From Enterococcus haemoperoxidus ATCC BAA-382 (GTDB lineage Bacteria > Bacillota > Bacilli > Lactobacillales > Enterococcaceae), in assembly GCF_000407165.1 (NCBI RefSeq), contig NZ_KE136480.1, positions 62,001 to 126,000 on the forward strand: a DNA stretch of 64,000 nucleotides, in the 5' to 3' direction. Position numbers and translations under genes: made by a program. Under the pieces are notes generated by a model that searched no databases, was not told where the DNA came from, and was given only the letters and a program-made list of their open reading frames with translations. Every line of letters begins with the position of its first letter. Within the stretch, counting starts at the first letter, position 1. Shown here in pieces: positions 28,267 to 49,041 of this stretch.

Positions 28267-29112
28267 ATGAGAATCAAAGGAGACATCATCCGCACAGTCA
28301 GAAAACAAAAAAAGTTGTCGCAAGTAACTTTAGCCGCTGGAATTTGTACACAAGGAACTGTTAGTAATATTGAAAATAAAAATGTTTGTGATAGCCTTGA
28401 GATCCTTGATGCAATCTGTAAGAGATTAAATCTTAGTCTAGAAAGTGTCTTAGATGATAATGATGAAAAGAAGTTAACTTCTTTATTAAACCAAGTAGAA
28501 GAATTGTGTAATACATTTGAACATAAAAAAGCCCACTCATTGTTAAAAGAAACATCAATCAATGTGGCTGATTTTCAAAATAAAGAGTTAGAAGTACGCT
28601 GGTTCTATTTTATGGGAATCACTAATCTGCTCGGCTACAACAATACAACCGATAGTTTGTTTTATTTTTACAGAGCCGATGAACTTGGCGATTCAAATTC
28701 AATTTATGCAATTCTTTCAGTCAACAGCTTAGGAATTGTCTATGAAATGGCCGATGAGTTGGATAAAGCACAAGTTTATTACGAAAAATCCATTGATATG
28801 TTGAAAAAAATGACGATCAAAATGCCAATTGAAGCAACAAAAGTCTTCTTCAATACTGCGAAATTTTATTCTTTGATCAAAGATTATGCTGCAGCTTTTG
28901 ATTTATCGTCTCAAGGAATTGCCCTAAATAAAACCTATCAATCTTTGTATATGCTAGATCTCTTAGCTTACGAAGCAGCTTTTAATGAATTTATGAAGTC
29001 ACCAAATCTAAAAGCACCAGATTTTAATAGTGCAAAAGTTTTTGCAGCTTTCAATGACAATCAAAATTTATTAGCAGTTATCGCTAATGATGAAAAAACA
29101 TTGACTCGTTAG
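28267..29112 (+). CDS. RNPP-type (PlcR/Rgg-like) helix-turn-helix regulator with TPR domain
   Basis: A 281-residue regulator. The N-terminal XRE helix-turn-helix (about 4-60) reads GDIIRTVRKQKKLSQVTLA...TVSNIE; the rest is helical with TPR-like repeats such as SLGIVYEMADELDKAQVYYEKSIDML and TAKFYSLIKDYAAAFDLSSQGI. This is the layout of cytoplasmic peptide-binding RNPP proteins. GAGGGG precedes the ATG. The divergent 20-residue gene is the natural ligand candidate. The downstream LPMO and chitinase genes, after a terminator, are possible targets. Confidence 0.82.
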   Translation: MRIKGDIIRTVRKQKKLSQVTLAAGICTQGTVSNIENKNVCDSLEILDAICKRLNLSLESVLDDNDEKKLTSLLNQVEELCNTFEHKKAHSLLKETSINVADFQNKELEVRWFYFMGITNLLGYNNTTDSLFYFYRADELGDSNSIYAILSVNSLGIVYEMADELDKAQVYYEKSIDMLKKMTIKMPIEATKVFFNTAKFYSLIKDYAAAFDLSSQGIALNKTYQSLYMLDLLAYEAAFNEFMKSPNLKAPDFNSAKVFAAFNDNQNLLAVIANDEKTLTR

Positions 29113-29156
29113 ATTAATCGTTATTATAAAAACACTTTTGAGAGCATTGCAGTGAC

Positions 29157-29199
29157 CCCCAAAAGTTAGACCTGAAAATCTAACTTTTGGAGTTTTTTT
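29157..29199 (+). terminator. terminator of the RNPP regulator gene
   Basis: CCAAAAGTTAGA and TCTAACTTTTGG arms with an eight-base loop followed by AGTTTTTTT. Confidence 0.88.
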
Positions 29200-29337
29200 A
29201 TTTTATTCATAACAAACCACAACAGACAAACGCCTTCGTACAAAAGAACTTTTTTCACAAAAACTCTCACTAAATTATCATTTTGAAAATAGTTGCATAT
29301 CATTTGAATAATATAAAACAACATGTTACATTTACCA

Positions 29338-29352
29338 TTGTAAGCGCTACAA
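29338..29352. promoter_or_regulatory. probable cre site (CcpA operator) before the LPMO gene
   Basis: TTGTAAGCGCTACAA is a near-palindrome that matches the catabolite-responsive-element consensus at most positions (WTGNAARCG core intact). It lies 25 bases before the LPMO start codon, close to the ribosome binding site, where CcpA binding would repress. Carbon-catabolite control of chitin utilisation would be expected. Confidence 0.6.
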
Positions 29353-29376
29353 AAAATACTTTTAGGAGGATTCACA

Positions 29377-29961
29377 ATGAAAAAAACAATGCTCAAAACC
29401 GTTCTTACACTTAGTTTATTAGCAGGAGGTTTATTTGTTTCTTCTACGGTCACACATGCTCACGGGTATGTTTCATCGCCAGGAAGTCGCGCATACTTCG
29501 GCAGTAGTCAAGGTGGAAAAATAAATAAAAATGTTGGTCGTGCTGAATGGGAACCTCAAAGTATCGAAGCTACTAAGAATACATTTATTACAGGAAAACT
29601 AGCTAGTGCAGGCGTTAGCGGATTCGACCCATTAGATGTTCAGACAGCTGATCGTTGGTATAAATCTGATATTACAACAGGCCCTCTTGCAATCAACTGG
29701 ACGTTAACTGCCCGTCACAGAACTTCTACATGGGATTACTATATGACAAAACAAGGGTGGAACCCAAACCAGCCTTTAGATATTAAAAACTTCGATTTAA
29801 TCGGTCGTGTCGATGATAAAGCTGCGATTCCTGAAGCTTCTGTTAATCATACAATTACTGTTCCTAGCGATCGCAAAGGCTATCATGTGATTTATGCTGT
29901 TTGGAACGTTTACGACACAACAAATGCTTTTTATCAAGCAATCGATGTTAATGTAAAATAA
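29377..29961 (+). CDS. chitin-active lytic polysaccharide monooxygenase (AA10)
   Basis: A 194-residue secreted single-domain copper enzyme (formerly CBM33) that cleaves crystalline chitin oxidatively. The signal peptide ends THA, and cleavage after residue 28 leaves His29 as the mature N-terminus; His114 (ARHRTSTW) is the second histidine of the copper brace. TWDYYMTKQGWNP and the C-terminal VIYAVWNVYDTTNAFYQ are typical. It closely matches the known Enterococcus faecalis enzyme in length and histidine positions. AGGAGG precedes the ATG; the GH18 gene follows after 21 bases. Confidence 0.95.
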   Translation: MKKTMLKTVLTLSLLAGGLFVSSTVTHAHGYVSSPGSRAYFGSSQGGKINKNVGRAEWEPQSIEATKNTFITGKLASAGVSGFDPLDVQTADRWYKSDITTGPLAINWTLTARHRTSTWDYYMTKQGWNPNQPLDIKNFDLIGRVDDKAAIPEASVNHTITVPSDRKGYHVIYAVWNVYDTTNAFYQAIDVNVK

Positions 29962-29982
29962 CAACTGAAAGGAGCTAAATAC

Positions 29983-31032
29983 ATGAAAATCAAACAATTG
30001 ATCCCTGCTTTTTTACTACTTTCAGGTATTACTGCTGGTAGTTTATTTGCAACAACACCTGTTGAAGCCGCTGATTCTGCTAGTGAAATGGTCAGTGTAG
30101 CGAATAAAAAAGTTCTTGTCGGCTATTGGCATAATTGGGCTTCTAAAGGCAGAGATGGTTACAAACAAGGAACATCTGCAAATATTTCATTAGCAGACGT
30201 GAATAAAGCATATAATGTAGTACCCGTTTCATTCATGAAAAGTGACGGTGTCAACCGGATCCCAACATTCGCTCCATATAACAAAACAGATGCTGCTTTT
30301 CGTCAAGATGTGGCCCTGCTCAACAGTCAAGGTCGTGCTGTTTTGCTTGCGCTAGGTGGTGCTGATGCTCATATCCAATTAAAATCTGGAGATGAACAGG
30401 CTTTTGCTGATGAGATCATTCGTCAAGTAGAAACTTATGGTTTTGATGGACTGGACATTGATCTAGAACAGTCCGCTATTACAGCAGGTGATAACCAAAC
30501 GGTGATCCCAACTGCTTTGAAAAAAGTTAAAGAACATTACAAAGCCCAAGGGAAAAATTTCATCATCACAATGGCGCCTGAATTTCCTTACCTAAAACCA
30601 GGTGGTGCTTATGAAAAATACATTACTTCCTTAGAAGGTTATTATGACTACATTGCACCACAGTTATATAATCAAGGCGGCGATGGTGTTTGGGTGGATG
30701 AAATCAATAAATGGATTCCACAAAGCAACGATGCTTTGAAATATGAGTTTCTTTATTATATGTCTGACTCTATGATCCATGGTACAAGGACATTCTTAAA
30801 GATTCCAAATGACAAACTTGTTCTTGGACTTCCTGCCAATGTTGATGGTGCCGGTAGTGGCTATGTGATTGATCCAACGGCTGTCTATAAAGCGCTTGAT
30901 CAACTAGCTAAAGATGGAAATCCAATCAAAGGCTTGATGACTTGGTCTGCTAACTGGGATGTTGGCACCAACGTAAACGGCGTAGCTTACAACAATGAAT
31001 TTGCTACAAGATATGCACGAATTTTACAATAA
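29983..31032 (+). CDS. secreted GH18 chitinase
   Basis: A 349-residue glycoside hydrolase family 18 enzyme. A signal peptide ends near VEAAD (about residue 30). The catalytic signature GFDGLDIDLE ends in Glu162, with Asp158 and Asp160 completing DxxDxDxE. APQLYNQGG and the C-terminal LMTWSANWDVG complete the barrel. No chitin-binding domain is attached; the adjacent LPMO would open crystalline chitin for it. GAAAGGAG precedes the ATG. The gene pair order, LPMO then chitinase, is the known enterococcal one. Confidence 0.94.
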   Translation: MKIKQLIPAFLLLSGITAGSLFATTPVEAADSASEMVSVANKKVLVGYWHNWASKGRDGYKQGTSANISLADVNKAYNVVPVSFMKSDGVNRIPTFAPYNKTDAAFRQDVALLNSQGRAVLLALGGADAHIQLKSGDEQAFADEIIRQVETYGFDGLDIDLEQSAITAGDNQTVIPTALKKVKEHYKAQGKNFIITMAPEFPYLKPGGAYEKYITSLEGYYDYIAPQLYNQGGDGVWVDEINKWIPQSNDALKYEFLYYMSDSMIHGTRTFLKIPNDKLVLGLPANVDGAGSGYVIDPTAVYKALDQLAKDGNPIKGLMTWSANWDVGTNVNGVAYNNEFATRYARILQ

Positions 31033-31043
31033 GTAAATAAAAA

Positions 31044-31212
31044 AGAGCGCGAAACAAAACTAAAGAAAAGTTTTGTTTCGCGCTCTAAATCCGAATAAAC
31101 GGCGAGAAAAAAGCAGCTCCTTCGGAAATAAGCTGAAATTCTCAAAAATTTGAAAAGAAATTTTCGTGAATTCCCTCTTATTTCTCGGAGCTAAACGCTT
31201 TTGTCTCGGCCT
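31044..31212 (+). repeat. dispersed hairpin repeat, copy 2 (left edge of island)
   Basis: A perfect 18-bp stem (31044-31061 with 31069-31086, arm AGAGCGCGAAACAAAACT), then AAATCCGAATAAACGGCGAG and AAAAAAGCAGCTCC. A second long imperfect palindrome, GCTCC..CGGAAATAAG against CTTATTTCTCGGAGC (31116-31191), is followed by TAAACGCTTTTGTCTCGG. It terminates the chitinase operon. The same ordered blocks are in copy 3 (37335-37498), and the first part is in copies 1 and 4. Confidence 0.8.
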
Positions 31213-31221
31213 CTTTTTACT

Positions 31222-31845
31222 CTATTTCTTTTCTCCACTACTGACTAATACTTTACTGCTGTGCAACACATCAGTTGTATTTTTTGTTCGATAAACGCCC
31301 TCTTTTCTTAAATGATGGTAAATCGTTGAGGTAGAAATACCACAACGTTTTGAAATTTTTTCTGTTGGCATATCGGTGTTATGGTATAGCTCCAGCGCTT
31401 CATTAACTTGATTGACAAGTGGCGGGCGACCCAAAATAACACCGTTTTTTTTAGCTGCGCTCAACCCTGCTAAAACACGTTCACGAATCAACTCGGCTTC
31501 CATTTCAGCAAATGCTCCCATGATCGTAAAAAAGAATCGCCCCATTGGAGTAGAAGTATCTATGCTGTTTTCAATACTGACAAAATGAATATTTCGTCGA
31601 TCAAATTCTTCTAGTAAACCTAACAATTGCTTAGTTCCTCTAGCCAACCGATCTAGTTTAAAAATCACAAATGTATCGCCTGGTTTCAAAATTGTCAATG
31701 CTTTATTCAATTCGTTCCGAAAGCTTTTACGTCCACTTTCATATTCTTTGAAAATTTTATCGACACCATAATCTTTCAATGCTTGATATTGAGAATCAAA
31801 TTTTTGATAATGAGTGCTGACACGCATATAGCCAATAACTGCCAT
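31222..31845 (-). CDS. serine recombinase (resolvase/invertase family), left
   Basis: A 207-residue small serine recombinase. The catalytic serine lies in YMRVSTHYQKFDS (Ser10); conserved arginines are in KLDRLARG, and the E helix is MGRFFFTIMGAFAEMEAELIRERVLAGL. The C-terminal helix-turn-helix is KISKRCGISTSTIYHHLRKEG. I start at the ATG at 31845 after GGGGGAG; the frame continuing to 32001 is extra. It is roughly 70 percent identical by eye to the right-hand recombinase, which points the other way. Confidence 0.9.
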   Translation of the reverse strand: MAVIGYMRVSTHYQKFDSQYQALKDYGVDKIFKEYESGRKSFRNELNKALTILKPGDTFVIFKLDRLARGTKQLLGLLEEFDRRNIHFVSIENSIDTSTPMGRFFFTIMGAFAEMEAELIRERVLAGLSAAKKNGVILGRPPLVNQVNEALELYHNTDMPTEKISKRCGISTSTIYHHLRKEGVYRTKNTTDVLHSSKVLVSSGEKK

Positions 31846-32001
31846 TTTATTCTCCCCCTTATTCTCGAAGTTGAAACAGACATGCTTATTTCCGAAGTCT
31901 TCAAACCTTGATGATTTAGTACTTAAACCAGGACATAACACTTTGAGTTCTATAGCAGCCTCAAAAAGTCCGAATAAACGCTTTAACTGGATGCCGATCA
32001 T

Positions 32002-37334: not shown

Positions 37335-37498
37335 AGACAAAAACGTTTAGCTCCGTTAAATAAGAAGGCCTTCATCGCTTAGAGGTTCAGCTCTTAGAAG
37401 TTGATATGATCTAAACAAAGTATAGTCTACTTTTTACCATCGTTTATTCGGATATAAAGCCCGAAACAAAACTGAATTTTAGTTTTGTCCCGGGCTCA
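37335..37498 (-). repeat. dispersed hairpin repeat, copy 3 (inverted), between lanA and lanM
   Basis: On the minus strand: stem AGCCCGGGACAAAACT / AGTTTTGTTTCGGGCT (37496-37458), then TATATCCGAATAAACG, a variable stretch, and finally CGGAGCTAAACGTTTTTGTCT (37355-37335). These blocks match copy 2 in order. It begins 16 bases after the lanA stop codon, so it likely terminates most lanA transcripts and lets few read into lanM, giving more precursor than enzyme. Confidence 0.75.
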
Positions 37499-37514
37499 AC
37501 TTGATTATTTTAGA

Positions 37515-37703
37515 TTACCATCCACAACATCTTGAAGAGCAGCAGCTATAACTACATCTTGTAGAATAACAACTACTTGATGATGATGACGATGATGATG
37601 AAGACCAGCTCCATCCAAAGAAACTCCCTTGTACCTTATTCATTTCTTCTGGTGTTAATTCCTCGAAAGATTTTCCAACTTTTTTCTCAGCTTGTTTGTT
37701 CAT
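37515..37703 (-). CDS. lanA: class II lanthipeptide precursor with an eleven-serine core
   Basis: A 62-residue precursor. The leader (27 residues) ends FEELTPEEMNKVQGS, matching LanM leaders such as those of cytolysin, with probable LanT cleavage after Gly-Ser. The 35-residue core is FFGWSW, then eleven consecutive Ser, then CYSTRCSYSCCSSRCCGW: 6 Cys against 16 Ser and 1 Thr. The ATG at 37703-37701 follows AGGAGG; the longer frame to 37760 lacks a site. I know no lanthipeptide with such a serine run. Dehydration pattern, rings and activity cannot be predicted. Confidence 0.88.
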   Translation of the reverse strand: MNKQAEKKVGKSFEELTPEEMNKVQGSFFGWSWSSSSSSSSSSSCYSTRCSYSCCSSRCCGW

Positions 37704-37731
37704 AGTGTGTTTTCCTCCTAAATGTTTTTTG

Positions 37732-37758
37732 GATAATAAAATGTGCACTTTTATTATC
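37732..37758. promoter_or_regulatory. inverted repeat just upstream of lanA
   Basis: GATAATAAAA and TTTTATTATC arms with a seven-base spacer (TGTGCAC) lie about 10 bases before the lanA ribosome binding site. No T-run follows on the minus strand, so it is not an obvious terminator. It may be an operator or an mRNA-stabilising hairpin. Confidence 0.35.
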
Positions 37759-37824
37759 ATTTATTTAAAATAGATTGTTGTTTAGGCAATCTATCCTAAA
37801 ACAATTTTTCTTCACTGAATCAGA

Positions 37825-40278
37825 TTAAATTGTTAATCTGATAACCGTGAATTTGTTCGCTTCAATTTTGAATTTTGTCGGTGTAGCTTCTTTTGAATAC
37901 CCTCTTACCATGGGTTCGATTTCGTATTCTCCTGGGGCCAAGTAAATACTGATTTGGCCAAAAGTATTCGATACTACTGTCGTTTCAAAAGCTGTACCTT
38001 TAGTACAAGTGATGTTATATTCCAAACCTTTTAGTCCTTCCTTTGTATCATTACTTGAAAGATAAACTAGCGCACGACCTTGTTCTTGTTTTGGTTTGTT
38101 ATAAAAAATTGCATCTGCAATTTCTTCTGCTACGATTTTTTTAGTTTGTACTGGGGCATCAAGATCATAGCCATCTGGGGCTTTCGTTTCTTTGATTGTG
38201 GCTTCTCCCGCAGGTAAATCTGGAAAGAAGAGCTCCCCTTGTACATCTGTAACTCCTTTATGACTATTCCCAGCTGAGTCAGTTACTTCAAACTCTGCAT
38301 TCGGTAAAACGGTATCTGTTTCATAACCATCTTCATCTTTTGCATATTTTGTGATTTTCAAACCACCTAAGTTTTCTTTCTTAATATTGGCATGACTAAT
38401 TTCAGCTATTTTCCCAGATTCAACCGTTACTTCATAAAATGTTGAATCTTGTTCATAGCCAGGCGGTGCTTGAATTTCGATTACATAGTATTTACCTGGT
38501 TCTAGATTATCTAAAAGGATTTCTCCATTATCATTCGTTGTATATGTGCCGACTAATTGCGTATTGTTGTCATAGACTTCAAAGACTGCACCCGGTAAAT
38601 AAACGACTGGTTTTGAATCTTTCACAAATTTAATGATTTTCAATGAACCTGTAACAGGTAATTCTATTTTTTTGTTGATGATGTCAATTGTAGCCTTGCC
38701 ATTTGGATCATTCTTAGAGAGTGTGATAAATTTTGGTGTTGTGTCTAGTTCATATCCCTCTGGTGCTTTCGTTTCGATCAATTTATATATTCCGTAAGGT
38801 AGATCATTTAGATGAGCAATACCATTTGCATCTGTCGTGACTTTGCCAACTAGCAGATCATTGGCGTTATACACATCAAATTCTGCACCAGCTAGTACCG
38901 TTGAGAATTCATCTTTTTTCACTATTTCAAGCATTCCTGTTGTTTTTTCTTTTTTATTTTCCACAGTTACACTAATTAGACCATTTGGATCACCTTTGGA
39001 GATTACGACTGTTTTCGGTGTTGTATCTAATTCATATCCTTCTGGCGCTTTCGTTTCGATAAGCTGATACTGACCGAATGGTAAATCTTTCAGTGTCCCA
39101 ACTCCGTTAGCATTCGTTGTGATTTTACCAACAACTTTGTCGTTTTTGTCTCGAACTTCAAATTCTGCACCAGCTAATCGTTTGCCTGTCTCGTCTTTTT
39201 TAATAACTTCAAGCGCTCCAGTTGTGATTTGTTTTTTATTTACTACAGTAATACTTGCCTTACCATTTGGATCGGTTTTAGATAATGTAACCTGTTTGGC
39301 TGTTGTATCGAGTTCATAGCCATTTGGCGCTATATATTCAACTACTGTATATTTGCCATATGGTAAGTCCTTCACTACAGCAATTCCATTAGCATTCGTG
39401 GTCACTTGCCCAACTAAAACCCTATCACTATTCATAACTATAAACCCAGCTCCAGCTAAAGTTTTACCATTTTCATCTTTTTTAATTATTTCCAAATCAC
39501 CTGTTGTGACTACTTTTTTATTCACTACATTGATAGTCACTACGCCAGTTGAAGAAATAGTGGCATATCTAGGTGTCGAATCTAGTTGATAACCATCTGG
39601 TGCTTTAACTTCGATTAGCTTATATGTTCCATATGAAAGATTCCCTAATGATGCTACACCGTTAGCATTCGTAGTAATTCTTCCTACAATTTGATTGCTT
39701 GCATTGTAAACATCAAAAACAGCACCAGCTAAAAGTTGATTACTTTCATTCTTTTTAATGACTTTAAGACTCCCTTTTTGACTCGGTAAAGGGATATTGC
39801 ATTTAGTTAAACAAATAAATTGCCCTGGTAAAAAAATGTTGAAGTACATTGGCGTTTTTTCTAACTGATAACCCGTTGGTGCTTTCGTTTCACGGACCGA
39901 GTAATAACCAAGAGGCAATGATCTCGTCTCAGCAATACCATTATAGTTTGTCTGAATGACTTGAACAGCTCGGTTAAAACGATCATAAATCGTAAATTGA
40001 GCGCCTGATAGTCTCGCTTTTGTGTGCTCATCAGATTTGATTATTTGTATGCCCCCACGTAATACTGGAATAAAGAATCTTGGAGTTGCTTTGGGCGTTA
40101 CAGAATATCCTTTTTGTATATTCGACAGCGTATTACCTGCTTGATTACTCGTAATGGATGTCGTCGACCATGATCCATTATTCTCTGTTGCTGCCTCAAC
40201 TTTCTTCGTTCCTAAGGCACTGATTGTTAATAAAATTAAAACAAGTGAATAAAATAAATAGCTAACTTTCCGTTTCAT
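37825..40278 (-). CDS. secreted eight-repeat CnaB/SpaA-type surface protein
   Basis: An 817-residue protein with a signal peptide ending near VEAATEN. It holds eight CnaB-like prealbumin domains of about 85-95 residues. Most show VIKKDE (isopeptide lysine), AGAEFEVYD, TTNANG, ETKAPEGYELD (catalytic Glu) and a closing VxNKK asparagine, so self-formed isopeptide bonds are likely. There is no LPXTG motif or C-terminal helix; it ends KFTVIRLTI. I start at the ATG at 40278, since GGGGGAG lies within the first codons of the longer frame. It lies 121 bases before lanA on the same strand. Confidence 0.85.
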   Translation of the reverse strand: MKRKVSYLFYSLVLILLTISALGTKKVEAATENNGSWSTTSITSNQAGNTLSNIQKGYSVTPKATPRFFIPVLRGGIQIIKSDEHTKARLSGAQFTIYDRFNRAVQVIQTNYNGIAETRSLPLGYYSVRETKAPTGYQLEKTPMYFNIFLPGQFICLTKCNIPLPSQKGSLKVIKKNESNQLLAGAVFDVYNASNQIVGRITTNANGVASLGNLSYGTYKLIEVKAPDGYQLDSTPRYATISSTGVVTINVVNKKVVTTGDLEIIKKDENGKTLAGAGFIVMNSDRVLVGQVTTNANGIAVVKDLPYGKYTVVEYIAPNGYELDTTAKQVTLSKTDPNGKASITVVNKKQITTGALEVIKKDETGKRLAGAEFEVRDKNDKVVGKITTNANGVGTLKDLPFGQYQLIETKAPEGYELDTTPKTVVISKGDPNGLISVTVENKKEKTTGMLEIVKKDEFSTVLAGAEFDVYNANDLLVGKVTTDANGIAHLNDLPYGIYKLIETKAPEGYELDTTPKFITLSKNDPNGKATIDIINKKIELPVTGSLKIIKFVKDSKPVVYLPGAVFEVYDNNTQLVGTYTTNDNGEILLDNLEPGKYYVIEIQAPPGYEQDSTFYEVTVESGKIAEISHANIKKENLGGLKITKYAKDEDGYETDTVLPNAEFEVTDSAGNSHKGVTDVQGELFFPDLPAGEATIKETKAPDGYDLDAPVQTKKIVAEEIADAIFYNKPKQEQGRALVYLSSNDTKEGLKGLEYNITCTKGTAFETTVVSNTFGQISIYLAPGEYEIEPMVRGYSKEATPTKFKIEANKFTVIRLTI

Positions 40279-40331
40279 ACAATAAAACTCCCCCAAAAAA
40301 TTTTGATTTTTGACTCTGCTGGCTTATAAAT

Positions 40332-40534: not shown

Positions 40535-41407
40535 TTGAAAAATTATGGAACATTGTTAAAAAAAATACGACAAGACAAAGGTCTTAGTCAAAAGGACATC
40601 TATGATGGAATCATGACCAGACAAACTTATTATTTAATTGAGACAAATGTCAGTATGCCATCGTTTGACAAATTTTTAATGATATTGGAAAAACTTTTTA
40701 TTTCTGTTGAAGAATTTCTGGATTTACTTGATCATGAGTCTTTTCCACCAGAAAATAATTTGTACCATCAATTAAGCCAAGCTGTTTTCAAAAAAGATCA
40801 GCCAGTATTTGAATCACTTATCAAAGAAACGCAAGAAATCTATACAATGACAAACAATAAAAAATACTTCCACCTAAACTTGGTCACTCAAGCCATGGCT
40901 TGTTTGAATAAAGGAGAGACTGACCCTAAAGCTTTTGAATCGTCAAAAAAATTGATGCAGCCAATCAAACATTACTTAGTTGGTATCGACAAATGGTACC
41001 TCTATGAATTAAAGCTCTTGAATAATTCCTTATATTGTTTTGAACTTCATGAAGCAATTGCTTTAGGAAGTTTAGTCGGGACAAAAATCGATTCACTTAG
41101 CACACTGGAACAGTATCAAGAAATCAAATTAAGGATTTATCTAAATCTTTCTTCCTTATGTCTAAATTACCAAGATTATGAAAATACTAAGCTTTTTTCA
41201 ACATTGGCAAAGCAAAACGCTCAAACTGATTACCGCCTATTTGAATTGCTTGTTGCAAATTTAAATTACGAGATTGCTCAAGTAGCGGATAAAAAAATAC
41301 CTGTTAGCGATCACATTACTAAGTATCTTTCTATTTTAGAAAACTTAAACTATCAGGAAACAGTAAATGAATATAAAAAAATTTTAAATAAAAGTAAACT
41401 TTATTGA
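40535..41407 (+). CDS. Rgg/RNPP-type transcriptional regulator
   Basis: A 290-residue regulator: an N-terminal XRE helix-turn-helix (about 4-60, LLKKIRQDKGLSQKDIYDG...QTYYLIE) followed by a wholly helical domain of the Rgg C-terminal type. Such proteins bind short imported peptides and activate adjacent genes. It starts at a TTG after AGAGGAG. It sits between the lanthipeptide half and the fibre half and is divergent from the CnaB-lanA side, so those genes are the likely targets. Its 3' end meets the VWA gene within 29 bases. Confidence 0.85.
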   Translation: MKNYGTLLKKIRQDKGLSQKDIYDGIMTRQTYYLIETNVSMPSFDKFLMILEKLFISVEEFLDLLDHESFPPENNLYHQLSQAVFKKDQPVFESLIKETQEIYTMTNNKKYFHLNLVTQAMACLNKGETDPKAFESSKKLMQPIKHYLVGIDKWYLYELKLLNNSLYCFELHEAIALGSLVGTKIDSLSTLEQYQEIKLRIYLNLSSLCLNYQDYENTKLFSTLAKQNAQTDYRLFELLVANLNYEIAQVADKKIPVSDHITKYLSILENLNYQETVNEYKKILNKSKLY

Positions 41408-43725: not shown

Positions 43726-44385
43726 CTACTCATTGATTACTTGAATTTTTAATAGGTCATCTATTTGCAATAATGGATTAGTAGTTGGTATTTCTCCGTT
43801 CCACCAAGCATCTCTATATGCAAATTTAGTTACGCTGATTCCTTCTACTTTGATTTCAAATGATAGCAACGCCCCTTTATATTCTTCTGTGATAGTTGCC
43901 TGATTCATTGTTACTTTCGTAAATAAATTAGCGGTGTACATGCTTTTTCCTAGTTTATTTTTATAATAAAAATAGCCATCTTTCCCATCGATCCAGTCAT
44001 TTAAATTGTAATCGATACTCAAAACAGGAGCCGTACCCTCAGTTGTTGCTGGTAATAATGTGATTGAACCGTTTGCCTGTTTCTTTGTAAGAATAGGCAA
44101 TGCTAATACTCGGATAAAACTTTCTTGTTCTCCCGTGTTTTTTATCCTTACTTTTTTCGAATAGTCTATGTTAGGTTCAAATGATGTTGGCGGATCGAAT
44201 TCTTCTTCAATTGTCGTCTGGAGATTGCCTACTCTAAATTCATTCTGCTTTTGATCGCTATCTGTTAAGGCCGCATAAGTTTGATATATACCAAATGAAA
44301 AACTGACAAACATCACGACAAATCCTGTAAATAAAAAGAGTTGTTTGGTGCTTAAATATTTTTTTAACCCTTGCTTTTTTTTCAC
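43726..44385 (-). CDS. SipW-dependent fibre subunit paralogue 3 (BsaA/TasA-like)
   Basis: About 219 residues. A basic N-terminus and hydrophobic segment are followed by YAALTDSDQKQNEFRVGNLQ and then IEEEFDPPTSFEPN and KVRIKNTGEQESFIRV. These blocks match the two other paralogues in the operon and the TasA/camelysin pattern in which a SipW-cut signal precedes a beta-sandwich. I prefer the GTG at 44385 with AGGAG ten bases upstream over the GTG at 44409, which lacks a site. The next-upstream gene's stop lies just inside this region. Confidence 0.8.
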   Translation of the reverse strand: MKKKQGLKKYLSTKQLFLFTGFVVMFVSFSFGIYQTYAALTDSDQKQNEFRVGNLQTTIEEEFDPPTSFEPNIDYSKKVRIKNTGEQESFIRVLALPILTKKQANGSITLLPATTEGTAPVLSIDYNLNDWIDGKDGYFYYKNKLGKSMYTANLFTKVTMNQATITEEYKGALLSFEIKVEGISVTKFAYRDAWWNGEIPTTNPLLQIDDLLKIQVINE

Positions 44386-44401
44386 ACGCTTTCCACTCCT
44401 T

Positions 44402-45274
44402 TTAGTCACTTAATCGATCCCAATATAAGTCATACAACTCTCCAGAAGTCCCTATATTCCATGAACTTAAAAGTCCTTTAGTTCCATCATGTGCATCCAT
44501 GATTGGGTTTAATTGATAGAGTGCACCTTTAAATTTGTTTGGCGCACTTTCGCTTAATCGGATGTTTTTCATCACCGGCGCACTTATTTCGCTAGGCTGA
44601 AGCAATTCAGAATAATAAAAGTATCCATCTTTATATAACCAATAATTTTTCGTTCCCATTGGTGGTGTGGAAACATAGATATTATCAGGAAAGGCTAATT
44701 GAAACCAATGTAGTTCTGTTTTTTCTCTGCCACTATCTTTAAATTTATACATTTCAGTTCCAGTTAGCAGATTGGGGACGAGTGCTTTTTCAGCAATGAA
44801 ATTGTGCCCTTCATGCAAAAACGTTCCACCAGCTTGAGCTGCTGGCTTCCATGAGGTTGTATCCTTTTGATCAACTATTGGTCGTACCTCGTTTGGAGAA
44901 ATAGCTAAATTACCATTGCCAGTTTGATCTGCTGTATCTATTTTGAACGTCAATAAATACTCGTATAAACTGATTCGGACAAAGGTAGGAATATTCCCAG
45001 TATTTTTGACTTGTATAACTTTCTTTGTGATTATACCTGGTTGCCATTCAAATTCAGGTTCAAATTCTTCTACAATCTTGGCTGATAATCGTGATCCCTC
45101 AAAATGGTTGACTTCACTATCTTCTGAGACAAACCAAGCATATGTACTTCCTAGAACCATCAAACCAGAAAAGAGAAAGGTACTAACAGCAATGATCAGC
45201 TTCGTGTTTACTTTTGCTTGTTTCTTTTTTCTTCGTCTATTTCTTTTAGTTGAATATTGCTTACTCTTTTTCAT
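44402..45274 (-). CDS. SipW-dependent fibre subunit paralogue 2 (BsaA/TasA-like)
   Basis: A 290-residue protein with a very basic N-terminus (KRNRRRKKKQ), one hydrophobic segment and YAWFVSEDSEVNHFEG, the SipW-type cleavage region. KIVEEFEPEFEWQPG and VKNTGNIPTFVRISLYE match the paralogues. The C-terminal half contains GYFYYSELLQPSE, also shared. The start is the ATG at 45274 after AGGAGG; the longer frame to 45316 is unsupported. Likely a structural part of a TasA-like fibre. Confidence 0.85.
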   Translation of the reverse strand: MKKSKQYSTKRNRRRKKKQAKVNTKLIIAVSTFLFSGLMVLGSTYAWFVSEDSEVNHFEGSRLSAKIVEEFEPEFEWQPGIITKKVIQVKNTGNIPTFVRISLYEYLLTFKIDTADQTGNGNLAISPNEVRPIVDQKDTTSWKPAAQAGGTFLHEGHNFIAEKALVPNLLTGTEMYKFKDSGREKTELHWFQLAFPDNIYVSTPPMGTKNYWLYKDGYFYYSELLQPSEISAPVMKNIRLSESAPNKFKGALYQLNPIMDAHDGTKGLLSSWNIGTSGELYDLYWDRLSD

Positions 45275-45352
45275 GCTGTACCGCCTCCTATCATTTGATC
45301 GTTCTAAAAAATCCAATTGGCGTTCATGTATTTACTGTCGTTTCTATTTGGT

Positions 45353-46093
45353 CTATCCATTTTTTTCTTGTTTTTTATGTTTGATTATCAGTAAGGAAAT
45401 TAAAATCAAGAACAATCCTATGCATGAAAAAAGCAAGGCGTTTCGCCATTCTTCACCTGTGTTCGGTAATTTAAATTTACTTATTAACGTTTCCAAAAAA
45501 GGTTTTTCCGGTTTTTCTGGATCTAAGGTATTCGGCAACATTGTTTTCACAGCTTTAAAATGCCAGATATTCTCTACAACGTTTTTTTCAAAAAAATCTC
45601 TGTTGGTGTAGGCTTTTCCATCTAATTCAAAATGAGCTTCTAACATTTTTGTATCGCCACCTTTGAAAGTACCTAAATTTAATGGCGTTGATGTGTCTTG
45701 TAGATTTAGCGTTTTGTTTATGCCGGATAATGGCCCTTTATAAACTTCTTTCCCTTCATAAATCAAAGTCATCTGAATAGCTTTAGACAGATCTAAGGAC
45801 CCATTGACCATTGTGGGTTTACTGATATTCATTGTTAAGTGATAAGGGATATCTTTTTCAATGTTGATGATCGTAATTTTTGTAGACCATTTTTTCCCTG
45901 GTGCTACATCTCGAATATCAACGAGATATTGACCATCGTTTTTGATTTTAATGCCTTGATCATCGCCAGCTACTATTCCAGGAGGAAGATTAGATTCAGA
46001 ACTTGCTTCAACAGGTTTTAATGCAAGCGGCAAACTGATTAGTAAGAATAAACTTGCCAGCAACCACTTTATTTTCCTGCGTCTTCTTTTCAT
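45353..46093 (-). CDS. LPXTG wall-anchored protein of the fibre operon
   Basis: A 246-residue surface protein: basic start and signal peptide ending near VEASSES, a beta-rich ectodomain (DIRDVAPGKKWSTKITI resembles the SipW-substrate core), then a proline-rich stalk (LDPEKPEKPF) and a C-terminal sortase signal LPNTG (209-213), hydrophobic helix and KHKKQEKNG tail. A second LPNT without Gly occurs earlier, before LDPE. It is placed between fibre subunits 1 and 2 and is the obvious candidate to fix the fibre to peptidoglycan. AAGGAGG precedes the ATG. Confidence 0.85.
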   Translation of the reverse strand: MKRRRRKIKWLLASLFLLISLPLALKPVEASSESNLPPGIVAGDDQGIKIKNDGQYLVDIRDVAPGKKWSTKITIINIEKDIPYHLTMNISKPTMVNGSLDLSKAIQMTLIYEGKEVYKGPLSGINKTLNLQDTSTPLNLGTFKGGDTKMLEAHFELDGKAYTNRDFFEKNVVENIWHFKAVKTMLPNTLDPEKPEKPFLETLISKFKLPNTGEEWRNALLFSCIGLFLILISLLIIKHKKQEKNG

Positions 46094-46127: not shown

Positions 46128-47174
46128 TTATTTAGCTGGCACTAAGCCTTTTAGCGCTGTTGCTAAAGGATCGTTGACACCTGCAGGAAGCCAGTCATCT
46201 ACAGCATCTTTATATGCCGCGATTCCTTGACCTTTTACAGTTAAGTCATAGATCAATTTACTGTATTCATTACCTGCTGTTCCTAGTAATTTCACCGCGT
46301 CCATCAATTGTGTTGTGTTAACACCTGGATTTAGTACGCTTGTATAATAGAAATAACCATCAGCAGCATTGAAATACCACTTGTCCGCAACTTTTGGATC
46401 TGTTGTGATATTGTTAAATGAAATTTGGATATTAGAAGATCCTGTTGCTGCTGGCACATTCCAAACCAATGTCCCGTCTTGTGTAAATGTTGGTGCATAA
46501 ATTGGTGCTGTCGTCCACTCTTTTTCAAAGGTGTTATACTCTAAAGCTACATAACTAAGGGTTGGTGTACCTGATTTTACTTTGATTTGATTGGTTGCAT
46601 TACGTTCAAATCCGTCAATGCCGCTTGCATAGTATAAAACTCCACCTTTTTCAAAAGCATAACGATACGTATAAGTTGTTTTGGTTCCAACCGTTTCAGC
46701 TTTTTCTTTAACCTTCAATGTGTAAACCCCAGCAAAGTCACCAGCTGCCACAGTTATTTTTGGCGCACCTGTACTATCAAAAGTAGAATCTGTGAAGCCT
46801 GCTGGCGCATCTGTTCCTGGTAATACATAAATATTTTTATTTGTTTTCCCTTCAAGTTCAGCACCTGTTGTTGGTTTTGCTTGATGGTCTTTCAATAACT
46901 GTAATGTTTCAGTTAATGAAACACGGATCAAGGCTTTGTATTTACCAATATTTTGGATTGCCACATCTTTATTTACTTCTGAACCCGGATCCCATTCGGT
47001 TGGTGGCTCAAAGGTTTCCACCACTTCAATATCTTTACCTGTTGCAATTTGACCTTCAAAGTGGTTGGTCTTTTGGTCTTCACTAGCGAACCAAGCAAAC
47101 GTTGCTGCTGCTAGTGCTGCAAGTGCAAAGGTGCTTGCTAACGCAAGGACTTTTTTCTTTCTGTTTTTGTTCAT
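46128..47174 (-). CDS. major SipW-dependent fibre subunit candidate (BsaA/TasA-like)
   Basis: A 348-residue protein. After a basic start and Ala-rich hydrophobic segment it reads FAWFASEDQKTNHFEGQIATG (in two blocks, residues 26-46), the BsaA-family SipW signal region, then VETFEPPTEWDPGSEVNKDVAIQNIGKYKALIRVSL-like sequence. The C-terminal half has GYFYYTSVLNPG, shared with paralogue 2. No sortase motif. Being first after the signal peptidase and longest, it is the likely main fibre protein (inference). GGGAGG precedes the ATG. Confidence 0.88.
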   Translation of the reverse strand: MNKNRKKKVLALASTFALAALAAATFAWFASEDQKTNHFEGQIATGKDIEVVETFEPPTEWDPGSEVNKDVAIQNIGKYKALIRVSLTETLQLLKDHQAKPTTGAELEGKTNKNIYVLPGTDAPAGFTDSTFDSTGAPKITVAAGDFAGVYTLKVKEKAETVGTKTTYTYRYAFEKGGVLYYASGIDGFERNATNQIKVKSGTPTLSYVALEYNTFEKEWTTAPIYAPTFTQDGTLVWNVPAATGSSNIQISFNNITTDPKVADKWYFNAADGYFYYTSVLNPGVNTTQLMDAVKLLGTAGNEYSKLIYDLTVKGQGIAAYKDAVDDWLPAGVNDPLATALKGLVPAK

Positions 47175-47263: not shown

Positions 47264-48016
47264 TTATTTATTCAAAATGTAGTATCTGATGATCGTGATA
47301 AACCCGAAAACTGATATCAAAAAAATGATTGAGACGAATGGATTTTCACGTACAAAATTTAAAAATGCTCCTATTTTAGGGATTACTAGAATTTTTTTAC
47401 CGACTACTTGTTTTTCATTGACCGGAACATCTTCAGCTAAATTGGCATCCCCTTGCGTAATATAGTAGGTTCCTTTGGTTTCGCCTAGATGATCTAACTT
47501 TTTTTTCACTCTATGGGTCAAAAACGCCTGGCTTTTGATACTTGGGCGAAAGGTGATGATATCCCCCACTTCAGCTGCTTCACCAGCAATATTTTTAACG
47601 ATAATCACATCCCCAGAATGAAATCCCCCTTTTTGTTTTTCAGGATTTCTTGGCACCATTGAATCCGTCAAAACACCAAAAAATCGATAACCTAGAACAC
47701 TCTTATCCGCATTTTTAGTGGTTGCAAAAATAATCGATCCAGCAATCATAAATAAAATAAAACCATAGAAAACAATATTAAATAACAGCGTATAAACAGG
47801 GTTCTTATCCTTATGACGAGTGACATTCTTAGTTTTTTTAGAATCTGGATTGGGTTTCCTTTTTTTATTTTTAGGATGTGCATTCCTATTGGTTGCCTTA
47901 CTCGTTGGTTTTGAACGATTCGTTCCTTTTTTATCGTTTATTTGTTGTTTCGTTGGTGGTCGCTTTTTCTTTTGTCTTTTGTCTGACGATTGTTTCTGGC
48001 TTCGTTCTCTCACCAT
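47264..48016 (-). CDS. sipW: SipW-like ER-type signal peptidase I
   Basis: A 250-residue membrane peptidase with an unusual lysine-rich cytoplasmic extension of about 70 residues. Two membrane helices (about 75-98 and 227-247) flank the catalytic domain. The nucleophile is Ser119 in TDSMVP; the general base is His168 in FLTHRV, a Ser-His dyad as in SipW and ER signal peptidases rather than the bacterial Ser-Lys; Asp190 is in QGDAN. Such enzymes process TasA/BsaA-type subunits, which fill the genes just downstream. Its leader contains an intrinsic terminator. Confidence 0.92.
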   Translation of the reverse strand: MVRERSQKQSSDKRQKKKRPPTKQQINDKKGTNRSKPTSKATNRNAHPKNKKRKPNPDSKKTKNVTRHKDKNPVYTLLFNIVFYGFILFMIAGSIIFATTKNADKSVLGYRFFGVLTDSMVPRNPEKQKGGFHSGDVIIVKNIAGEAAEVGDIITFRPSIKSQAFLTHRVKKKLDHLGETKGTYYITQGDANLAEDVPVNEKQVVGKKILVIPKIGAFLNFVRENPFVSIIFLISVFGFITIIRYYILNK

Positions 48017-48471: not shown

Positions 48472-49041
48472 ATGGCAGTTATTGGCTATATGCGTGTCAG
48501 TACGCATCAACAAAAATTTGATTCTCAGCAAAAAGCGCTTGAGCGCTACGGAGTAGATTTTATTTATAAGGAACGTGAAAGTGGTCGAAAAGCATCTAGA
48601 AGCGAACTCAATAAAGTCTTGTCCTCTTTGAAATCTGGCGACACACTCGTTATTTTTAAGCTTGATCGCTTATCTAGAGGTACGAAACAATTACTCAGTT
48701 TACTAGAAGAATTCGATAAGAGAAACATCCATTTCGTCAGTATTCAAAATAATATAGATACAACGACCGCAATGGGCCGCTTCTTTTTTACTGTTATGGG
48801 TGCATTTGCTGAAATGGAGGCTGAATTGATTCGTGAAAGGGTAATAGCCGGACTTGAAGCAGCCAGAGAAAATGGCAAACAGCTAGGAAGACCACCAAGA
48901 ACAAAAGAGGTAGGCGAAGCAATGAAACTGTATACTAATTCGGATCTATCGGTTCCTGAAATCGCAAAAAAGTGTAATGTATCTGTCCCAACAGTTTACA
49001 ACCATATCAAAAAACAAAACTTACTCAGAAAAGTAAATTAA
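48472..49041 (+). CDS. serine recombinase (resolvase/invertase family), right
   Basis: A 189-residue small serine recombinase. Catalytic Ser10 is in YMRVSTHQQKFDS; KLDRLSRG, MGRFFFTVMGAFAEMEAELIRERV and the C-terminal helix-turn-helix EIAKKCNVSVPTVYNHIKKQ are intact. It differs from the left recombinase mainly in the C-terminal DNA-binding part and lacks its last 18 or so residues. The two genes point outward from the island ends. GAGGTG precedes the ATG. Confidence 0.9.
   Translation: MAVIGYMRVSTHQQKFDSQQKALERYGVDFIYKERESGRKASRSELNKVLSSLKSGDTLVIFKLDRLSRGTKQLLSLLEEFDKRNIHFVSIQNNIDTTTAMGRFFFTVMGAFAEMEAELIRERVIAGLEAARENGKQLGRPPRTKEVGEAMKLYTNSDLSVPEIAKKCNVSVPTVYNHIKKQNLLRKVN

Follow-up and report, generated by a model that had tools for sequence, protein, structure and literature searches.

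A class II lanthipeptide precursor with a conserved serine tract, encoded within a surface-fibre island of Enterococcus

Enterococcus haemoperoxidus encodes a small peptide, LanA, in which eleven consecutive serines lie between an aromatic head and a block of six cysteines, raising the question of what such a precursor is made for. Its kind, the class II lanthipeptide, is known; what is new is a member with a conserved Ser tract that is built into a surface-fibre island. We propose, with a probability of roughly one half (about 0.48), that the lanA product is a genuine class II lanthipeptide that serves a SipW/BsaA-type surface-fibre (biofilm-matrix) module as a conserved accessory, and not an ordinary free bacteriocin. 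Lanthipeptides have been studied mostly as antibiotics; here the ring-forming part is nearly unchanged in 17 of the 22 genomes of the genus and is encoded in a fibre-building island. The features of the island are collected in Table 1, with positions counted in the window (the whole 64-kb stretch of DNA that was analysed).

The minus-strand translation of lanA (MNKQAEKKVGKSFEELTPEEMNKVQGS / FFGWSWSSSSSSSSSSSCYSTRCSYSCCSSRCCGW) agrees with the first-pass annotation, which had described a 62-residue precursor with eleven consecutive Ser and the Cys order C-x4-C-x3-CC-x3-CC. The leader (residues 1–27) is of the mersacidin/cytolysin type and ends in QGS, and the core (residues 28–62) has the layout FFGWSW-S11-C-x4-C-x3-CC-x3-CC-GW. 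The dehydratable residues of the core, previously put at 17, number 18 (17 Ser and 1 Thr), beside 6 Cys. The leader motif had been called LanM-type, and the precursor-family search bears this out with PF16934 (31.7 bits; Pfam cut-off, 27.6), while two NCBIfam precursor models matched with scores below their cut-offs. Across the six frames of the window, the lanA tract is the sole run of at least six Ser, and no run of at least seven was found in 398,012 bases from 20 other stretches of the genus. A chance or frameshift artefact is ruled out by the uniqueness of the run, the 17 orthologous loci, and the codon-level purifying selection. The lan locus does not hold the two precursors with alpha/beta cores of a two-peptide lantibiotic: scanning 3-kb and 16-kb stretches for the precursor pattern gave one precursor per lan locus, and a precursor profile search gave a single match in 15 of the 17 genomes, with extra matches on other contigs in G010 (two) and G001 (six).

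Table 1. Features of the lan-bearing island in the window
Feature	Position	Strand	Basis or remark
Serine recombinase 1, outward-facing left boundary	31222..31845	-	Start inferred from MAVIGYMRVS
lanT, C39 peptidase / ABC exporter, 714 aa	32002..34146	-	PF03412 and ABC domains
lanM, class II lanthipeptide synthetase, 1037 aa	34159..37272	-	TIGR03897, PF13575, PF05147
Stem-loop between lanA and lanM	37457..37497	-	-24.7 kcal/mol, z -6.1
lanA, class II lanthipeptide precursor, 62 aa	37515..37703	-	Translation, PF16934, orthologues
SpaA–lanA intergenic region	37704..37824	-	Two inverted repeats by eye
SpaA-repeat surface protein	37825..40296	-	Directly upstream of lanA in 17/17
Rgg/MutR-type regulator, divergent from SpaA gene	40535..41407	+	14/17 loci
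VWA-domain surface protein, 751 aa	41437..43692	-	Full-length orthologues in lanA genomes
BsaA-like SipW-dependent protein	43726..44409	-	TIGR04090 53.6 bits, below cut-off 60
BsaA-family SipW-dependent matrix protein	44402..45316	-	TIGR04090 76.3 bits, cut-off 60
LPXTG-type protein, LPNTG near C-terminus	45353..46093	-	NF053819 29.7 bits, below cut-off 47
BsaA-family SipW-dependent matrix protein	46128..47174	-	TIGR04090 90.8 bits, cut-off 60
SipW-type signal peptidase I	47264..48016	-	TIGR02228 66.3 bits, cut-off 51.85
Serine recombinase 2, outward-facing right boundary	48472..49041	+	68% identical to recombinase 1

Intact lanM and lanT genes do adjoin lanA, as had been noted; both lie directly downstream as whole open reading frames and match their family models, LanM with 683.4 bits against TIGR03897 (cut-off, 304) and with PF13575 (DUF4135 dehydratase) and PF05147 (LanC-like cyclase). 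For the catalytic residues, we assume the numbering of CylM and the roles of 12 checked positions (kinase, elimination, and zinc sites), of which Arg506 and Thr512 are presumably the elimination residues. When LanM was aligned to CylM (PDB ID: 5dzt), all 12 kinase/lyase and zinc positions were invariant in the 17 orthologues, those matching Arg506 and Thr512 among them, so that the synthetase should be able to phosphorylate, eliminate, and cyclise. The C39 domain of LanT keeps Cys, His, and Asp unchanged at their columns in 17/17, whereas its Gln column holds Gln in 14 and Pro in three. The family models, the invariant catalytic residues of LanM, and purifying selection thus sustain the original class II assignment. 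A plasmid origin was rejected, neither the 10-kb locus nor the precursor being matched in the plasmid collection; LanM is 27–29% identical to the 12 listed of 138 matched plasmid records, and all 138 are below 60%. A phage origin was also rejected, with no match confirmed in viral contigs; LanM is 27.3% identical to the LanM of a phage record (OR846606.1, Enterococcus phage Efs 1-1-1), which scores equal to LanM records of Enterococcus faecalis plasmids.

Full-length lanA orthologues occur in 17 of the 22 genomes of the genus and 17 of the 105 of the family, the carriers including E. plantarum, E. crotali, E. caccae, E. rivorum, and E. ureasiticus; the tally of 19/22 obtained at E-values up to 0.1 contains two weak matches with internal stop codons. 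In the order sample (395 genomes), 15 of 17 lanA matches fell in this genus and two, limited to the leader, in other genera; in the class sample (398 genomes), three matches comprised two in this genus and one leader-only match. The comparison of Ser-run length among strains, which the first-pass annotation had proposed as a check, gave 7–14 Ser in 16 of the 17 loci, the window included, and none in one (G004). In that orthologue the run is missing (CWWMPWGSNC) and the C-terminal block is kept, which shows that the conserved C-terminal core can do without the run. Measured between the last Trp and the Cys of CYSTRC, the tract comprises 11 residues in 11 of the 17 orthologues, 10 to 15 in five, and four in G004.

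In the 16 genomes with the run, 175 of the 184 tract residues are Ser. The last two positions are Arg or Asn in some genomes; when these two are excluded, the inner tract consists of 151 Ser and one Thr in 152 residues, both being substrates of LanM. The eleven tracts of 11 residues are encoded by 11 distinct DNA sequences (pS, 0.30; pN, 0.019). Retention of Ser while the codons differ suggests protein-level selection on Ser, although the genomes are relatives and the argument falls short of proof. Recent microsatellite slippage as the sole cause is disfavoured, because the longest perfect TCA repeat spans 2–5 units in the 16 tracts and the codons are a mixture of TCN and AGY. The tract might instead be an unmodified flexible linker that joins the aromatic head to the ringed C-terminus, with LanM modifying the C-terminal block only, and we regard this reading as a serious, if somewhat doubtful, possibility. 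Such a linker could vary in length from 7 to 14 residues as the tract does and could be lost with the C-terminal block kept, as in G004, and no more than six dehydro residues are required by the six Cys; however, Gly, Ala, Asn, or Pro would be expected to be tolerated in it, in contrast to the near-exclusive Ser of the inner residues with their diverged codons. This argument is tempered by the relatedness of the genomes, which are not independent, and by codon slippage, which could favour Ser too. The first-pass annotation had allowed for a long dehydroalanine tract, a partly modified run, or a spacer; the near-perfect retention of Ser, with Thr as the only exception, leans against the last of these in an inert form.

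The tract could also carry another modification of Ser, for example a phosphate left by LanM, which acts via phospho-Ser intermediates. Phosphorylated lantibiotics have been reported from Streptococcus salivarius (PMC13219514), a precedent for lanthipeptide phosphorylation in which, within the available part of the paper, a Ser tract is not described. Against this, the two LanM positions matching the elimination residues are invariant in 17/17, and neither an extra kinase nor a glycosyltransferase family was recognised among the island proteins scanned, the latter absence speaking also against a glycocin; we consider a phosphorylated or otherwise decorated tract very improbable.

The genes around lanA are those of a surface-fibre locus. 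Beside the SipW-type peptidase stand BsaA-family proteins, the third scoring below the cut-off, which is the composition of a SipW-BsaA matrix operon; the island SipW scores 50.3 against the Bacillus SipW equivalog model, below its cut-off of 190. Modelling of one BsaA-like protein gave a structure of poor quality (mean pLDDT, 67.2) without a Foldseek match at E ≤0.001, the TasA fibre 8aur standing at rank 10 (E, 0.13), and no solved relative of that protein was found by sequence at E-values up to 0.001. The order SipW-BsaA-LPXTG-BsaA-BsaA-VWA-(regulator)-SpaA-lanA-lanM-lanT-recombinase 1 is common to all 17 lanA genomes, with the LPXTG gene seen in 16, one stretch having ended before reaching it, and the first BsaA gene seen in 14 in the first, shorter stretches before BsaA and SipW were found in all 16 others. 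In three of the 17 loci, the regulator slot is occupied by a different regulator-like protein, winged-helix by eye. Recombinase 2 lies beyond SipW in the window and all of the 16 other lanA genomes, so that both recombinases are present in 17/17 islands. The open reading frame of recombinase 1 is listed as 31222–32001, with the start at 31845 inferred. The two recombinase genes begin with an identical 29 nt in inverted orientation (31817–31845 and 48472–48500); phase variation by these flanking recombinases found no support, the orientation being the same in all 13 genomes with the GH18 flank. Outside the left boundary, 28267–31032 encodes an HTH/TPR regulator, a chitin-binding LPMO, and a GH18 protein, a flank common to most lanA genomes.

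The island sits between the GH18 gene and an SMR pair in 13 genomes. In three others (G002, G005, and G015), the GH18 gene is absent and recombinase 1 adjoins the LPMO gene, which follows GH18 elsewhere, so that the left boundary probably lies at the same site; the SMR pair was not found in the stretches fetched from these three. At least the same left neighbourhood is therefore kept in 16 of the 17 lanA genomes, and the remaining one, G012, has a complete island with neither usual flank found. Empty sites, in which the GH18 gene directly adjoins the SMR pair, exist in three genomes without lanA (G007, G008, and G017), and two more genomes without lanA (G016 and G020) gave no GH18 match. Full-length VWA and full-length lanA are found in the identical 17 of the 105 family genomes, the VWA match of G007 covering the C-terminus only. 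This shared presence and absence, together with the empty sites, indicates that the lan and fibre genes are kept as one unit.

Fibre genes are also found without lan genes. SipW-BsaA loci of this kind occur in G000 (C1, near 187 kb, and C2, near 996 kb), at further loci, and near metF in six further genomes (L057–L068), several of the metF loci having a recombinase-like protein downstream. Besides its lan-bearing island, G018 has a second, recombinase-bracketed SipW-BsaA-VWA-SpaA unit (L089; G018:C34:82000-98000), in which SpaA adjoins recombinase 1 with no lanAMT between, indicating that the lan cassette was either gained or lost by a unit that is complete in other respects; the second unit of G018 and the lan-free loci also mean that the fibre module does not need the peptide. 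It could thus be supposed that the cassette was inserted once between SpaA and recombinase 1 of an old surface island and is functionally unrelated to it, a supposition that fits the lan-less unit of G018, the other SipW-BsaA loci without a lan cassette, and the left neighbourhood common to 16 of the 17 genomes, as under simple vertical descent. A conserved neighbourhood does not by itself amount to function, and vertical inheritance of a single old insertion would produce an identical gene order. We nevertheless hold a functionally unrelated passenger to be rather unlikely, since the cassette is kept at one position in 17/17 despite the change of the regulator in three and of both flanks in one, and since an N-terminal extension and a Cys column, both present in SpaA of the lan-bearing islands, are missing from the one lan-less SpaA sequence compared.

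The trees of seven island genes have 4 to 10 of 14 splits in common per pair. Those of LanM and BsaA_c0 agree in 10 splits with no strong conflict, those of LanM and VWA agree in seven with five conflicting pairs at support ≥0.9, and those of VWA and recombinase 1 contain six strongly supported conflicting pairs. The deep order of LanM and VWA thus agrees and the shallow order does not always, so that some gene exchange within the clade is possible.

Between orthologues, the lanA leader has a mean identity of 0.924 and a pN/pS of 0.062, and the C-terminal 18 codons have 0.913 and 0.132 (17 genomes), as compared with 0.722 and 0.232 for LanM, 0.627 and 0.336 for VWA, and 0.622 and 0.366 for SpaA, so that the precursor is more tightly constrained than its synthetase. 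LanT and recombinase 1 (pN/pS, 0.155 each) are close to the lanA core, and two flanking genes lie below its 0.132 (GH18, 0.075; regulator c13, 0.115); all these ratios are rough because synonymous sites are near saturation in most genes. With the GH18 gene and regulator c13 exceeding the precursor core in constraint, little can be concluded about role from constraint by itself. The near fixity of the core does bear on the possibility that the product is a free secreted lantibiotic that kills neighbouring bacteria, its genes being merely housed in the fibre island. The lantibiotic-type leader, LanM, and the C39-type LanT all suit a bacteriocin, as does the regulator, Rgg/MutR-type proteins controlling some lantibiotics. 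Bacteriocin cores, however, usually diversify, in contrast to a C-terminal core that is nearly fixed across 17 genomes, and the constant place within the fibre island is a further point against this reading. In addition, no known immunity family (LanFEG, LanI, or Abi-type) was found by Pfam/NCBIfam in lanA and 11 other island proteins, a scan of recognised families that small unrecognised proteins would escape and in which recombinase 2 was not included, having been compared by BLAST only. No two-component system was found among the island proteins scanned. Owing to the lack of a recognised immunity family and the nearly fixed core, the fibre accessory is favoured over a bacteriocin, which we consider unlikely though far from negligible; the first-pass annotation had not placed the gene in a conserved surface-fibre island, a setting that alters the function to be expected of it. 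These readings partly address different questions, some about the tract and some about the peptide, and their confidences do not add up to one.

For the fibre accessory, the following course can be envisaged. LanM would bind the leader, phosphorylate and eliminate Ser/Thr, and close thioether rings in the C-x4-C-x3-CC-x3-CC block. Because at most six of the 18 dehydratable residues pair with Cys, twelve would remain as dehydro residues or free Ser/Thr. The Ser tract would be at least partly dehydrated and form the link between the aromatic patch FFGWSW at the N-terminus and the ringed C-terminus, with the final residues of the tract providing the ring partner of the first Cys of the block; a Ser is always present within the three residues preceding the Cys of CYSTRC, so that the tract end can supply this partner. 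LanT, judging from its C39 domain, would cleave after the QGS motif and export the product, placing it where the SipW-processed BsaA-like, VWA, and SpaA proteins are expected. Outside the cell, the peptide may then act at or in the fibre layer of the SipW, BsaA, VWA, and SpaA proteins, as the fixed gene order suggests. With no recognised immunity gene and a fibre island around it, a structural or adhesive role is directly testable in these culturable bacteria. The tract is likewise an extreme substrate for LanM, the dehydration of eleven neighbouring Ser being a test of processivity, and, if dehydrated, it would form an unusually long run of dehydroalanine, a useful electrophilic scaffold.

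It is conceivable, though improbable, that LanM makes such a long dehydroalanine run and that the exported multivalent electrophile becomes covalently tethered to the fibre, for example through a thioether with Cys162 of SpaA, as a cross-linker or cap. All of the 152 inner tract residues in the 16 genomes with the run can be dehydrated by LanM. SpaA has three to seven Cys beyond residue 40 in 17/17, including a column at window residue 162 that is Cys in 17/17, as compared with 0–2 in the VWA proteins and 0–1 in the BsaA-like proteins, the first BsaA gene being incomplete in many stretches. The large SpaA- and VWA-type proteins of lan-less loci have no or one Cys. An exception, with two, is SpaA of the lan-less G018 island; it carries Val at the Cys162 column, with another Cys in the same domain at a different column, and is without the Trp-containing N-terminal extension found in the 17. 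Extracellular Cys are not unique to lan loci: at the lan-free metF loci, the BsaA_c1 and LPXTG proteins each carry a recurring Cys. Against tethering, G004 has the SpaA Cys and no Ser tract, and the SpaA Cys could be disulfide-bonded.

In comparison with class II lanthipeptides of the mersacidin/cytolysin type (PF16934; CylM, PDB ID: 5dzt), the type of leader, the 12 LanM positions, and the C39 LanT are alike, whereas in lanA the aromatic head and the six-Cys block are separated by an 11-Ser tract, and lanA is a single precursor without recognised immunity genes, nested in a surface-fibre island. The SipW-type peptidase and BsaA-family proteins (TIGR04090 and TIGR02228) are shared with sipW-bsaABC of Clostridium perfringens (PMC7395162) and SipW-TapA-TasA of Bacillus subtilis, to which the island adds VWA, SpaA, and LPXTG proteins, an Rgg-type regulator, recombinases, and the lan cassette. 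BsaA of C. perfringens is reported to polymerise into a filamentous matrix needed for pellicles (PMC7395162). A morphogenetic rather than antibiotic role has been described for the SapB/AmfS lanthipeptides of Streptomyces (PMC13380574), which are of class III and for which no homology is claimed.

The first-pass annotation knew of no described lanthipeptide like this one, and in open-access PMC we likewise found none with a poly-Ser tract or tied to a SipW-BsaA locus; subscription papers and preprints may differ. The SapB/AmfS cores are, to our knowledge, without a Ser tract. In thiopeptides, which are made by other enzymes and have another scaffold (azoles and a pyridine ring), core Ser become dehydroalanine. 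The nearest run found is the eight-Ser run in the core of the thiopeptide sulfomycin (SCTTTGCTTSSSSSSSS; PMC8448680); this RiPP core resembles lanA in its run, which, however, is C-terminal in sulfomycin, and no homology is claimed. PMC8448680 is also the sole open-access PMC paper to combine an eight-Ser string with the term 'lanthipeptide', and it was set aside as concerning a thiopeptide precursor. The E. caccae peptide of PMC9576775 was discarded as a thiazole peptide and not a product of this cluster. As far as their texts are available, PMC10134562 has a single mention of E. caccae and one of E. haemoperoxidus, both in its strain list, and PMC12715929 has no description of the lan locus; none of the terms sought occurs in PMC11251773.

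Strong stem-loops are present in the lanA–lanM gap of 15 of the 17 loci, the other two having gaps of 7 and 13 nt. The stem-loop in the window differs from those of the 14 other loci, and its gap measures 242 nt as against 100–146 nt. The segments 37335–37506 and 31036–31206 have inverted similarity (76 nt at 76% and 40 nt at 85%), resembling a MITE-like element; the latter is the region after the GH18 gene, and the gap is lengthened (by ~100 nt or more) in the window genome only. Of the two inverted repeats seen by eye 5' of lanA, both are present in 14 of the 17 loci and the first in 17/17, the second being missing from the minimum-energy fold in some of the 14. These elements would fit attenuated read-through yielding precursor in excess over enzyme. 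A shared operator was rejected, the 23-bp palindrome upstream of lanA occurring once in the window, and a promoter and terminator scan gave no signal above shuffles.

Other lanthipeptide loci exist in these relatives. A second, stand-alone LanM is encoded outside the window at G000:C1:130075-132720 (L053/L054), and LanM matches at 27–31% identity occur in 20 of the 22 genomes of the genus, one of them split. A recurring association of the second LanM with the second BsaA locus was rejected, ~13–14 kb of housekeeping genes lying between them in six genomes; in the window genome, the two are >50 kb apart. Downstream of the stand-alone LanM, six of the eight loci scanned have a tiny precursor with a leader ending in GG and a core of WTKLICF, WTRLICF, WSRLVCWP, or WSRIICLP; having one Ser/Thr and one Cys, it is possibly a single-ring, pheromone-like lanthipeptide. 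G010 encodes, on the minus strand of a 19.5-kb stretch in which no LanM match was found (L042:9412-9630), a second peptide with a lanA-type leader (KVGKSFEELTMEEM) and an Asn-rich core, which might be modified in trans by LanM of the lanA locus. Another class II cluster, in G001 (L043), has a LanM 38% identical and a LanT 50% identical, with several repeated precursors.
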